Shown one piece after another: positions 18,664 through 36,514 of a stretch of 64,000 nucleotides of DNA. Under the pieces are notes generated by a model. It was not told where the DNA came from. It saw only the letters and a list, made by a program, of their open reading frames with translations, and did no database searches. Numbering within the stretch: the first letter of the stretch is position 1; each line of letters begins with the position of its first letter. This DNA comes from Limimonas halophila (GTDB lineage Bacteria > Pseudomonadota > Alphaproteobacteria > Kiloniellales > Rhodovibrionaceae): NCBI RefSeq assembly GCF_900100655.1, contig NZ_FNCE01000002.1:434001-498000 (forward strand), written 5' to 3'. The position numbers were made by a program, and so were the translations under genes.

Positions 18664-18940
18664 GCCAAGCACCTCACTGGGCCAGGCCGGTTCCGGGGAA
18701 CCTGACCTTGGCAGTCATCTTTTAGCCCATCGGCCGGGCGCCGATCAAGTGTCGATGTCAAAGCCTTGCACATCGCCCGTTCTTTATAAAGATTCAAAAT
18801 GCAGCGCATGACAGCAGGGCATGTGGACCGCCATGTCCCCCGTGTCGACGGCCGGCCGCCCGGGGCAAAACCGGATGGACGCGGCCGCGCGGCCCGCCCC
18901 AAGCTCCGAATCGGCACCCGGGCGGTTCCTGTGATGGTCT

Positions 18941-18985
18941 GGGGCTTTCCACGAAGGTGTGGCCGCAAACCATGCCGAAAGCCCC
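18941..18985 (-). repeat. Dispersed element, copy A (3' of gatB)
   Basis: The core 18941-18972 on the minus strand matches copy B (36311-36342, plus strand) at 26 of 32 bases. The complement of 18977-18985 (GGGGCTTTC) pairs with GGAAAGCCCC, so copy A can fold as a hairpin. Read in one frame, both copies give the peptide [FL]SAWFA[TA]TPSWK[VA]P. The core begins 75 nt after the gatB stop, in the same orientation as gatB; copy B begins 77 nt after rnr. Confidence 0.6.
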
Positions 18986-19028
18986 TGTCGCCCCGCAAGC
19001 CGAACCAATTCTCCGCCCAAGGCGCGTT

Positions 19029-19045
19029 CAGCTTCGCCGAAGCTG
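19029..19045 (-). terminator. Short hairpin directly after gatB
   Basis: CAGCTTC and GAAGCTG form a perfect 7-bp stem with a 3-base loop, starting 2 nt past the gatB stop. There is no T tract, so termination here would need help. Confidence 0.4.
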
Positions 19046-19047
19046 CC

Positions 19048-20502
19048 CTAGCTGAGCTTCTTCTGCAGGATCTCGTTGACGACCTTGGGGTTCGCCTTGC
19101 CGCCGGTCGCCTTCATGACCTGCCCGGTGAACCAGCCCATCACCTTCTTGTTGCCTTCCTGAACCTGCGCGACCTGCTTGGGGTTTTCCGCGATCAGCCG
19201 GTCGACGATGGCTTCCAGCTCCGAGGTGTCGGTGATCTGCTTGAGGCCCTGCTCCTCGACGATCGTGCCCGGCTTCTTGCCGGTTTCCCACATCTGCTCG
19301 AAGACGTCCTTGGCGATGCGCCCCGAGATCGTCTCGTCCTGCATGAGGTCGATGAGCTCGCCCAACATCGCGGAATCGATCGGCGAGTCGTCCAGCTCCA
19401 GCCCGGCCTTGTTGAGCGCGCCGAAGAGCTCCGTCGTCACCCAGTTGGCGGCGACCTTGGGATCGCGACCCGCGGCGACCCGCTCGTAGAAGTCGGCCGT
19501 TTCGCGCTCGGCGACCAGGATGCCGGCGTCGTACGCGCCCAAACCGTACTCGTCCATGAAGCGCTGTTTTTTCTCGTCCGGCAGCTCCGGCAGGGACTGC
19601 TTGATGCGCTCCACCCAGTCCTGCTCCACGACGAGCGGCAGCAGGTCCGGGTCCGGGAAGTAGCGGTAGTCGTGCGCGTATTCCTTGGAGCGCAGCGAGC
19701 GCGTCTCGCCCTTGAAGGAATCGTACAGCCGCGTCTCCTGTTCGATGGTGCCACCCTGTTCAAGCACCTCGATCTGGCGCATGGCCTCGACTTCGATGGC
19801 CTGCATGATGAAGCGCACGGAGTTGACGTTCTTCACCTCGCAGCGCGTGCCCGGCACCTCGCCCGGCCGGCGCACCGAGAGGTTGATGTCGCAGCGCATC
19901 GAGCCCTCGGCCATGTTGCCGTCGCAGGTGCCCAGATAGCGCAGGATGGACTGTAGCTTGCGGATGTAGGCGCCCGCCTGCTCGGGGCTGCGGATGTCGG
20001 GCCGGGAGACGATCTCCATCAGCGCCACGCCCGAGCGGTTGAGGTCGATGTAGGTCTTGCCCGGCTCCTGGTCGTGCATCGACTTGCCGGCGTCCTGCTC
20101 CATGTGCAGGCGCTCGATGCCCACCGGCACGACCTCGCCGTCCGGCATGTCCAGATAGACCGTGCCCTCGCCCACGACCGGGGTGTTGTACTGCGAGATC
20201 TGGTAGCCCTGCGGCAGGTCCGGGTAGAAGTAGTTCTTGCGCTCGAAGGTGGAGACTCGGTTGATCTCCGCGCGCAGGCCCAGGCCGGTCTTCACCGCCT
20301 GCTCCACGCAGAAGCTGTTGATGACCGGCAGCATGCCGGGCATGCCGGCGTCCACCGGGGAGACCTGCGTGTTGGGCTCCGCGCCGAAGGCCGTGCTGGC
20401 CGGCGAGAACAGCTTGGCGTTGGAGATCACCTGGGCGTGCACCTCCAGCCCGACGACGATCTCCCACTGGCCGGTTTCGCCCGCGATGCGATAATTCGCC
20501 AT
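19048..20502 (-). CDS. gatB: Asp-tRNA(Asn)/Glu-tRNA(Gln) amidotransferase subunit B
   Basis: A 484-aa GatB. The catalytic cradle starts with [11 protein letters not shown] (residues 13-23) and has the metal/kinase core ([13 protein letters not shown], then [15 protein letters not shown]); the C-terminal YqeY-like tail ([22 protein letters not shown]) binds tRNA. It phosphorylates and amidates misacylated Glu/Asp-tRNA with ammonia from GatA. The ATG at 20502 has GGGGAGC upstream, within the end of gatA. Last gene of gatC-gatA-gatB. Confidence 0.97.
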
Positions 20503-24752: not shown

Positions 24753-24805
24753 GCCGCGACGCGGATGCGCTGTGCTAGGCTGGCTTCGACAGCATCACGA
24801 CAGAG

Positions 24806-24872
24806 AACACATGGCCTCATTCTGTCTTTCTCCTATAGGAGAAAGGACCCTAGCCGCGATTCCGCCGCTACA
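24806..24872 (+). repeat. Inverted-repeat element, left copy
   Basis: Matches the complement of 29732-29797; the core 24810-24850 is nearly identical (differences only in the hairpin loop: 2 versus 3 bases). It contains a perfect 20-nt palindrome at 24826-24845 (CTTTCTCC, TATA, GGAGAAAG). The two copies face each other across about 4.9 kb holding the CoA-transferase, pyrB, pyrC, plsY and the DUF559 gene. Confidence 0.8.
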
Positions 24873-33863: not shown

Positions 33864-36233
33864 ATGGCCAAGCCCAAGGGCAACCCGGCGGGCGAGGTTC
33901 CCTCGCGCGAGCAGTTGCTGCAGTACATCACCGAGGCCGGCGCGCCCGTCAAAAAGCGCGACATCGCCAACCACTTCGGCCTCAAGGGCGCGCAGCGCGA
34001 GACGCTCAAGGACATGCTGGCGGACCTCGAGGACGCCGGCGAGATCGAGCGCGGCGAGAAGCGCAGCTACCGGCCCGTGGGCGCCCTGCCCGAGGTGATG
34101 GTACTGGAGGTCTCCGGCCGCGACCCGGACGGCGAGCTGCTGGCCGACCCGGTGAACTGGGACACGGACCGCGAGCCGCCGGCGATCTACGTCTCCCCCG
34201 ACCGCCAGGGCGAGCCCACGATCCAGCCCGGCATGCGCGTGCTGGCGCGCATGAAGCGGGAGGAAGCGGGCAGCTACGTCGCCACGCTGATCCGCGTGCT
34301 GGCGGGCGCGCCCAAGAAGGTGCTCGGCATCTACGAAAAGTCGGGCAAGCAGGGCCGCCTGCGCCCCACGGACAAGCGCGTGAAGCAGGAATACATCCTG
34401 CGCGACGCGGATGCGGGCGACGCCGAGCCCGGCGAGTTCCTGCTGTGCGAAGTAAAGCCGCACCACCGCCGCGCGCCGCTGCGCGAAGCCCGCGTCGTGG
34501 AGCGCCTGGGCGACGCCACCTCCCCCAAGGCGATCAGCCTGATCGCCATCCACGAAAACGACATCCCCGCCGACTTTCCGGATCAGGCGATCGCGGAAGC
34601 CGAATCCGCCGCTCCGGTCACGGCCGAGGGGCGCGAGGATCTGCGCGACATCCCGCTGGTGACGATCGACGGCGCGGACGCCAAGGACTTCGACGACGCC
34701 GTGCGCGCCGTGCCGGACGACGATCCGGACAACCCCGGCGGCTACCGCATCATGGTCGCGATCGCGGACGTGGCGCACTACGTCCGCCCCGGCAGCCAGC
34801 TCGACCGCACGGCGTGGCATCGCGGCAACTCGGTCTACTTCCCCGACCGCGTGGTGCCCATGCTGCCGGAGGGGCTGTCCAACGGCTGGTGTTCGCTGCG
34901 CCCGGGCGAGGACCGCGGCTGTCTGGCGACGGAAATCCGCATCGACCGCAACGGCAAGGCCCTGGAGCACCGCTTCACGCGCGGGCTGATGCGCTCGGCC
35001 GCGCGGCTGACCTACGAGCAGGTGCAGGCGGCCCACGACGGGACGCCCGACGAGACGACCGGCCCGCTGCTCGACGACGTCATCGAGCCGCTTTACGGCG
35101 CGCTCGACGCCCTGCTGCGCGCCCGCGCCAACCGCGGCACGCTCGACATCGACGTGGCGGAAAAGCAGGTGGTCGTGAACGAGCGCGGCGAGGTCACGGC
35201 CATCGAACCGCGCGCGCGGCTGGATTCTCACCGCCTGATCGAGGAGTTCATGATCGCCGCCAACGTGGCGGCGGCGGAAACCCTGGAAAAGCGCGAACAG
35301 CCGTGCATGTACCGCGTGCACGAGCCGCCGGACCCGGACAAGATCGAGTCGCTGCGCCAGACGCTCAACACCTTCGACGTCGACATCGCGCCCGATCAGG
35401 CCGGGCACCCCAGCGCCTTCAAGCGCGTCCTGGAACAGGTGCAGGACCGCCCCGAAGCGCCCATGATCAACCAGCTGGTGCTGCGCTGCCAGAGCCAGGC
35501 ATACTACAGCCCGCACAACCTTGGGCACTTCGGGCTGGCGCTGGACCGCTACGCCCACTTCACCTCGCCCATCCGCCGCTACAGCGACCTGCTCGTGCAC
35601 CGCGCGCTCATCGACGGGCTCAAGCTCGGCGGCGGGGGGCTCGCGGGGCACGCCGGCGAGTCCTTCGAGGAGACGGGCGAGCACATCTCCTTCACCGAGC
35701 GCCGCGCCCAGCAGGCCGAGTTCGACGCCATCGACCGCTTCACCGCCGCCTATCTGCGCGACCGCGTGGGCGGGGAGTTCCAGGGGCGGATCACGGGCGT
35801 CACCCACTTCGGGCTGTTCGTGATGCTGCACGAAACGGGCGCCGACGGCTTGGTGCCCATCGCCACGCTGCCCGACGACTTCTACCAGCACGACCCGCAG
35901 CGCCACTGCCTGGTCGGCAAGCGCTGGGGCCGCGTCTACCGCCTGGGCGACGGCGTGCGCGTGCGCCTCAGCGAGGCCGACGCCACCACCGGCGGGCTCG
36001 TGCTGGAGGTGCTGGAGGTCACCGAACCGGCCGGCGAGACGCACGAGCCGCAGGTCGGCGAGCGCGGCGGCCCGCACAAGGGCAAGCAGCGCAAGGCCGC
36101 CCGCGGCACGGCCACGGCACGCCAAGCCGAGCAGACCAAGAAGCGGTCCCAGAAGAAGGTCAAAACCTCCAAGACCGGCGGCTCGGGCAAGAGCAAGGGC
36201 ACCGGCAAGCCGCCCAAGAAGCGCAAGGGCTAG
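33864..36233 (+). CDS. rnr: Ribonuclease R
   Basis: A 789-aa RNB-family 3'-5' exoribonuclease. An N-terminal winged helix (residues 12-70) and cold-shock domains precede the RNB domain, whose metal-binding aspartates lie in LVTIDGADAKDFDDAV (about 268-283). HFTSPIRRYSDLLVHRAL (about 567-584) and a C-terminal S1 domain (FQGRITGVTHFGLFV) follow. A Lys-rich tail ends the protein. Starts 6 nt after topA, so the two are one unit. Confidence 0.97.
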   Translation: MAKPKGNPAGEVPSREQLLQYITEAGAPVKKRDIANHFGLKGAQRETLKDMLADLEDAGEIERGEKRSYRPVGALPEVMVLEVSGRDPDGELLADPVNWDTDREPPAIYVSPDRQGEPTIQPGMRVLARMKREEAGSYVATLIRVLAGAPKKVLGIYEKSGKQGRLRPTDKRVKQEYILRDADAGDAEPGEFLLCEVKPHHRRAPLREARVVERLGDATSPKAISLIAIHENDIPADFPDQAIAEAESAAPVTAEGREDLRDIPLVTIDGADAKDFDDAVRAVPDDDPDNPGGYRIMVAIADVAHYVRPGSQLDRTAWHRGNSVYFPDRVVPMLPEGLSNGWCSLRPGEDRGCLATEIRIDRNGKALEHRFTRGLMRSAARLTYEQVQAAHDGTPDETTGPLLDDVIEPLYGALDALLRARANRGTLDIDVAEKQVVVNERGEVTAIEPRARLDSHRLIEEFMIAANVAAAETLEKREQPCMYRVHEPPDPDKIESLRQTLNTFDVDIAPDQAGHPSAFKRVLEQVQDRPEAPMINQLVLRCQSQAYYSPHNLGHFGLALDRYAHFTSPIRRYSDLLVHRALIDGLKLGGGGLAGHAGESFEETGEHISFTERRAQQAEFDAIDRFTAAYLRDRVGGEFQGRITGVTHFGLFVMLHETGADGLVPIATLPDDFYQHDPQRHCLVGKRWGRVYRLGDGVRVRLSEADATTGGLVLEVLEVTEPAGETHEPQVGERGGPHKGKQRKAARGTATARQAEQTKKRSQKKVKTSKTGGSGKSKGTGKPPKKRKG

Positions 36234-36294
36234 GCGACAGCCGATCACGGCGTCGTGGCCCCGGGTGTTCAATTGGCCCCGCCATCAAGAAGAT

Positions 36295-36345
36295 CGGGTG
36301 TTTTTCCGCCTGGTTTGCGACCACGCCCTCTTGGAAAGTCCCCGC
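36295..36345 (+). repeat. Dispersed element, copy B (3' of rnr)
   Basis: The core 36311-36342 matches copy A (18941-18972, complement) at 26 of 32 bases and starts 77 nt after the rnr stop on the same strand. The stem seen in copy A is weaker here (TTTTTCC against GGAAAG). In the same frame as copy A it encodes FSAWFATTPSWKVP and stops at 36361. The remaining part of the 281-base gap 36234-36514 shows nothing further that I recognise. Confidence 0.6.
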
Positions 36346-36514
36346 GTCGTCCACCGCCTGAGCGCTTATCGCGCGCTGCGATTCGCACATTCCCTACCCG
36401 GGCCGCGGCTGGGAACACCGCCGCGCCGTGATTCCGTGATCGCCCGCCGGTTCAAAACCGCGGTCGCGCCGCCCGGCCGCCACGATCCTCTGGCGACCCC
36501 GCCCCTCGCCCGTT

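Follow-up and report, generated by a model that had tools for sequence, protein, structure and literature searches.

Why would two short stretches of DNA, lying behind unrelated genes, resemble each other in the manner of coding sequence? In the 64,000 nucleotides of Limimonas halophila DNA analysed here (the window), one such stretch lies downstream of gatB and another downstream of rnr, each in the orientation of its upstream gene. A preliminary description had reported the pair, and our analysis recovers both at the positions and in the orientation given there; a consensus pattern has no other match in the window, and shuffles predict 0 matches. The distances past the stop codons are 62 nt (gatB) and 61 nt (rnr), and not 75 and 77 nt as first given. 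The gatB and rnr stretches are identical at 33 of 42 bases. As reported, they differ over 14 codons at nine bases, six of them third positions, six of the nine changed codons are synonymous, and no in-frame ATG lies nearby. Three readings had been offered, a tiny peptide, a mobile-gene remnant or an RNA element. We find that a hairpin element fits, one that is probably also mobile, and that the peptide is unsupported.

Results

The two stretches are the right half of a scattered repeat of ~115 nt with two hairpins (Table 1). In family A, to which both belong, the unit consists of CTAG, hairpin 1, a short linker (near ATCAAGAAGAT) and hairpin 2. Hairpin 1 measures 47 nt and has a GGGTAAATT stem of 9+11 bp, the inner stem being the one of 11 bp, with a 3-nt bulge (TAA or TGA) on the 3' side. 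Hairpin 2 is built on a GGGGCTTTC stem with an inner GGTTTG-loop-CAAACC. BLAST and alignment show the gatB element to be homologous to other loci, and its homology with the rnr copy runs upstream through a degenerate hairpin 1 to the CTAG that contains the stop codon. In the gatB copy hairpin 1 is alignable, its symmetry lost, and hairpin 2 retains 11 of the 13 consensus pairs, with a 9-bp outer stem (GGGGCTTTC/GAAAGCCCC) and an inner GGTTTG-loop-CACACC. Because both window copies combine a good hairpin 2 with an eroded hairpin 1, hairpin 2 alone had been seen in the preliminary description. The gene calls are backed by Pfam (GatB_N and GatB_Yqey for gatB; RNB, CSD2 and S1 for rnr), and the translations end in ...NEILQKKLS (GatB) and ...PPKKRKG (rnr), each followed by its stop. 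As to an intrinsic terminator, inspection by eye showed no T-run after either hairpin. An Rfam search of the window returned one tRNA only, and at six element loci, searched to an E-value of 1, nothing fell on the elements, chance matches aside.

Table 1. Elements of families A and B and their parts. R3 is the full-length covariance model and R2 the hairpin 2 (HP2) model; these short-calibrated models give rough E-values, and a copy in the training set is bound to match.
Feature	Location	Strand	Details
Full two-hairpin element, family A, after gatB	18937..19051	-	R3 84.8 bits, E 2.8e-16 (in R3 training set: fit, not discovery)
CTAG, left end of gatB element	19048..19051	-	TAG 19048-19050 is the gatB stop
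Hairpin 1 of gatB element, degenerate	19002..19048	-	R1 15.8 bits, E 0.16; aligned in A5
Hairpin 2 of gatB element (initial stretch)	18941..18985	-	RNAfold -23.5 kcal/mol, z -3.2
Full two-hairpin element, family A, after rnr	36230..36347	+	R3 88.9 bits, E 3.5e-17 (training-set member)
CTAG, left end of rnr element	36230..36233	+	TAG 36231-36233 is the rnr stop
Hairpin 1 of rnr element, strongly decayed remnant	36232..36279	+	Aligned in A5; symmetric hairpin not predicted
Hairpin 2 of rnr element (initial stretch)	36295..36345	+	12/13 consensus pairs; R2 55.8 bits (R2 training-set member)
Full copy, family A	soxD-soxA		
Full copy, family A	thrB-rnhA		
Full copy, family A	rlpA		
Full copy, family A	C8:96861		Upstream of PBP-like gene
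Full copy, family A	C4:62043		After gene with signal-peptide-like start
Hairpin-1-only, tandem	C4:1469/1571		102 bp apart; after enoyl-CoA-hydratase-like gene
Hairpin-1-only, tandem	C3:96975/97038		63 bp apart; before nadA-like gene
Hairpin-1-only	L079:149-213	-	Overlaps stop of pyruvate-carboxylase-like gene
Hairpin-1-only	C4:149474		
Hairpin-1-only, weaker	C5:20847		
Family B	L183:10009-10165		CTAG on both sides
Family B	L184:12002-12123		CTAG present
Family B	L198 near 1990		
Family B	L200:2241-2359		CTAG at right end
Family B, partial	L078 near 3600		
Family B, partial	L197 near 15963		

The constraint common to the copies is base pairing, maintained through compensatory changes. In hairpin 1, 97% of the cells are paired, against 26-52% when the partner is slid, and its covariation score was reached by 0 of 500 shuffles. 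Covariation that explains the pattern as an RNA stem, which the preliminary description had itself set against a coding reading, is largely what hairpin 2 displays (86.6% of cells paired, against 32-62% with the partner slid). The whole seven-copy alignment, which includes two copies with a decayed hairpin 1, is 81% paired; its covariation is modest, the score being reached by 8 of 500 shuffles. Folding z-scores of the well-preserved copies lie between -4 and -7.7.

Could the stretches still encode a tiny conserved peptide, or descend from a mobile gene? The six synonymous codons among the nine changed speak for it, and the signal persists when the rlpA copy is added (column-shuffle P 0.0026 for the trio). 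However, a codon-substitution test over the copies finds this signal in gatB, rnr and rlpA and none in the remaining four (P 0.67), leaving a weak excess over the full set of seven (P 0.07). The remaining copies do not conserve the peptide (LSARVANEPASKDP, LSAGFVRKPELEAI, LSAGSASESSSQET) and keep the stem pairing instead, and there is neither a common start nor a shared extent of the frame, which runs from 3 to 859 codons upstream and from 14 to 1050 downstream. A pairing-preserving simulation of the gatB/rnr pair gave P 0.003 for six synonymous codons and P 0.085 for at least six of the nine differences at any one codon position. Pairing thus leaves the bias partly unexplained, and we ascribe the remainder to chance and to the picking of the best-looking pair. 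The peptide-like pattern would then be a by-product of stem constraint and chance, and we regard a coding origin as very improbable. The case carries a caution, as synonymous-looking differences between two hairpin copies can imitate a coding signature.

How far does the repeat extend beyond the window? BLAST of the gatB copy against its own genome yielded a third and, less strongly, a fourth copy. The upstream flanks of these revealed the second, better conserved hairpin; whole-copy searches then recovered the family. Genome-wide, family A comprises seven full copies and about seven copies of hairpin 1 only, about 14 in total. The finds independent of model training are the hairpin-1-only copies outside the training set, the family B copies and a copy from a sister genus. 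Pfam-tested hosts other than gatB and rnr include SoxD, a protein with RlpA-type domains (DPBB_1, SPOR), a phosphotransferase called thrB and a CysH-type PAPS reductase; all other host names were read from the sequence by eye. A half-site search for a longer element with the same ends returned the known copies and one degenerate site only. The tandem before the nadA-like gene (L071:2976-3091, that is G000:C3:96975-97090) is flanked by two palindromic operator-like sites of the ATGCTCA..TGAGCAT type. At L079:149-213 (minus strand), the TAA stop lies inside the GGGTAAATT stem and an intrinsic-terminator-like hairpin comes next.

A second family (B), of different sequence (GGGCATGATGAGGTC ... GAGCGCGATGAG), follows the same plan with CTAG ends. 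It surfaced in the full-length model search, and its several copies come from sampled stretches of the genome. The copy after cysH has CTAG at both ends and extra inserted hairpins, another follows an aldehyde-dehydrogenase-like gene, and in the copy beside a gshA-like gene the right-hand CTAG is the stop of that gene. The right-hand CTAG of L183 ends no recognisable gene, and one unplaced copy is devoid of CTAG.

Five of the seven full family A copies start at a CTAG whose TAG is the in-frame stop of the upstream gene, and a sixth starts shortly after a TGA stop; six of the seven lie at or within about 6 nt of a stop, and most copies stand in sense orientation behind a gene. CTAG occurs 7 times in the window, where base composition predicts 175 (~25-fold rarer), and among the genes called in 444 kb (the window and sampled stretches) 7 of 316 end in CTAG. 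The CTAG stops of these 444 kb that bear a family A or B element belong to gatB, rnr and the cysH-like and aldehyde-dehydrogenase-like genes. At 2.2%, finding five CTAGs among six stop-adjacent copies has a probability near 3e-8 (calculated by hand). The copies have a common descent and were detected through their similarity, so this figure does not make the events independent; it means that CTAG either moves along with the element or serves as its target. CTAG sites at large have no excess of adjacent hairpins (30%, against 28-36% at other tetranucleotides), so the tie is specific to these families. CTAG pairs 60-200 bp apart are in mild excess in this genome (5, against 1.2 expected).

The hairpin 1 model, run over 143 genomes, gave nothing convincing beyond the own genome, and the full-length model, run over 61 genomes of the order, gave one clear outside copy, in the sister genus (G002). 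This copy reads CTAG, hairpin, linker, inverted hairpin, CTAG; its stems differ in sequence and keep the plan of 9 bp and a 3-nt bulge, its halves match as inverted repeats (symmetry z 7.3), and both of its CTAGs are stops of convergent genes. The least eroded form of the element is an inverted hairpin pair with CTAG at both outer ends, which is the layout of a REP dimer (BIME/REPIN). In the copies of the own genome the left/right symmetry is weak (z 0.8-2.3), the terminal inverted repeats match poorly and each end pairs within itself. Five related genomes lack a homologous element behind gatB, and their intergenic DNA is too diverged to reveal an empty site there. In the sister genus (L140, G002) a different, perfect hairpin, GGGGGCGCC-GATG-GGCGCCCCC, stands directly after the TAG stop of gatB.

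Among 84,980 species genomes, two pattern scans found 0 and 14 matches, and a scan of viral contigs found 2; on refolding, none had the hairpin 1 architecture apart from one weak Chloroflexi match (19.5 bits), which we took as chance. Plasmids and phages gave no match. The HP2 matches in G028, G003 and G010 are weak and stand without an upstream hairpin 1, and were likewise taken as chance; a generic bulged-hairpin scan was too permissive to be used (355 matches in the real G000 genome against 254 after shuffling). Finally, a search of the own genome for the Y1 transposase (RAYT, PF01797) gave no match, and five control genomes did match.

Discussion

Tandem copies, copies upstream of genes, absence in relatives, unrelated hosts and the tie to CTAG together point to a spreading sequence. 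We consider, with a probability of roughly 0.7, that the family consists of lineage-specific, non-autonomous REP-dimer-like (BIME/REPIN-like) repeats which insert at CTAG or carry it. Could selection instead have placed an immobile cis-regulatory or protein-binding RNA at the stops? That most copies follow a gene in sense orientation, and that six of the seven full copies lie at a stop or close to it, would suit such a dispersed RNA, as would the compensatory changes and a mean column identity (62%) too low for recent copies. However, the two tandem duplications (C4:1469/1571 and C3:96975/97038) are hard to reconcile with it, and so are the copies upstream of the nadA-like and PBP-like genes, the unrelated hosts, the absence at gatB in relatives and a tie to CTAG rather than to stops in general; we find an immobile RNA quite improbable.

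The repeat might also be a MITE moved by a DDE transposase, with CTAG as a 4-bp target-site duplication and not a tag of the REP type. Such an element would still be a mobile repeat; only the enzyme and the nature of CTAG would change. Like ERIC, RUP and NEMIS/Correia, the elements are non-coding, about 100-150 bp long, located near genes and probably mobilised in trans. CTAG stands on both sides of two copies (L183 and G002), as a duplication would, and on the right of L183 no recognisable gene could account for it; in the other copies it is found on one side or neither. MITEs, however, have one pair of terminal inverted repeats, whereas the present elements form a separate hairpin at each end, and their terminal repeats, significant in G002 only, are poorly matched in the own genome. 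Moreover, the half-site search yielded no longer element with such ends. We know of no parent IS for a CTAG-tagged paired-hairpin element. On balance a DDE-type MITE seems to us rather unlikely.

The REP-dimer-like reading draws on a likeness to the GTAG REPs and their RAYT-associated dimers (PMC3733652, PMC2817692, PMC3116915). The elements share with them short hairpins, bulged and carrying a tetranucleotide at their base, stems that vary with compensation, a position downstream of genes, a tag that often gives the TAG stop and, in the clearest copy, pairing with the tags outside. REPs sit mostly downstream of genes, and the ends of GTAG REPs often supply a TAG stop (PMC3733652). There are also differences. 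Here the tag is CTAG (five of the seven full family A copies, L183, L184, the right end of L200, and G002) and never GTAG; family A has about 14 copies, where GTAG REPs often exceed 100; two unequal hairpins and a linker form one unit of ~115 nt; and this genome has no Y1_Tnp match. A GTAG REP is an imperfect or bulged palindrome of 20-40 bp, and hairpin 1, bulged as it is, lies at 47 nt beyond the usual range. The inverted arrangement of a REP dimer is clear in the G002 copy and weak in those of the own genome. The CGTC REPs, typical of Alphaproteobacteria, are likewise palindromic intergenic repeats; they form head-head dimers, and no dedicated transposase is known for them (PMC3733652). Their CGTC adjoins a stem of 8-9 bp whose first pairs are AT, with a loop of 4-5 nt (PMC3733652), whereas here the tag is CTAG and the GGGTAAATT stem starts with GGG; CCCGTC does follow hairpin 1 in many copies, but on the 3' side. 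The elements thus fail the GTAG class on tag, copy number and RAYT, and the CGTC class on tag and stem; they are REP-dimer-like, yet belong to neither class.

How would such a repeat spread? It may have moved as a non-autonomous DNA element using CTAG as target or tag; we infer insertion at CTAG from the boundaries of the copies, as no empty allele was seen. In a CTAG-poor genome, insertion at the CTAG of a stop codon would spare the gene, since the TAG comes with the element or is duplicated by it. Once transcribed in a 3' UTR, the hairpins could act like E. coli REPs: they would bar the way to 3'-5' exonucleases or delay ribosomes at the stop codon, and thereby tune the upstream gene. REPs at most 15 nt from the stop stall ribosomes in E. 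coli, according to a statement in PMC12306157 that cites earlier work. As structures at mRNA 3' ends the elements are probably tolerated or of use; for the specific role in exonuclease blocking or ribosome slowing we lean slightly to the negative.

It is tempting, and for now speculative, to see here a third palindromic super-family, CTAG hairpin dimers that target or carry CTAG, land at the surviving CTAG stops and are moved by a non-RAYT enzyme. If confirmed, a third tag would stand beside those of the GTAG and CGTC REP classes, and the repeat would make of CTAG avoidance a landing rule, by which a CTAG-tied element enters the 3' ends of essential genes such as gatB harmlessly, the stop codon being kept. 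One would then also have to ask by what agent such repeats move in genomes devoid of RAYT.

Some minor observations concern other palindromes. At 24775-24853 of the window, about 22 nt past a TAA stop, lies a CTAG-N71-CTAG unit with a GTCCTTTCTCC/GGAGAAAGGAC hairpin, unrelated in sequence to families A and B. Adjacent to CTAG, at L190 near 11150 (minus strand) and at L200:85-309, is what may be a third type of palindromic repeat, GAGCAGANCGC..AATCA / TGATTC..TGCTC. Lastly, a CIRCE-like element, TAGCACTC-N9-GAGTGCTA, was recognised by eye at L190:10887.
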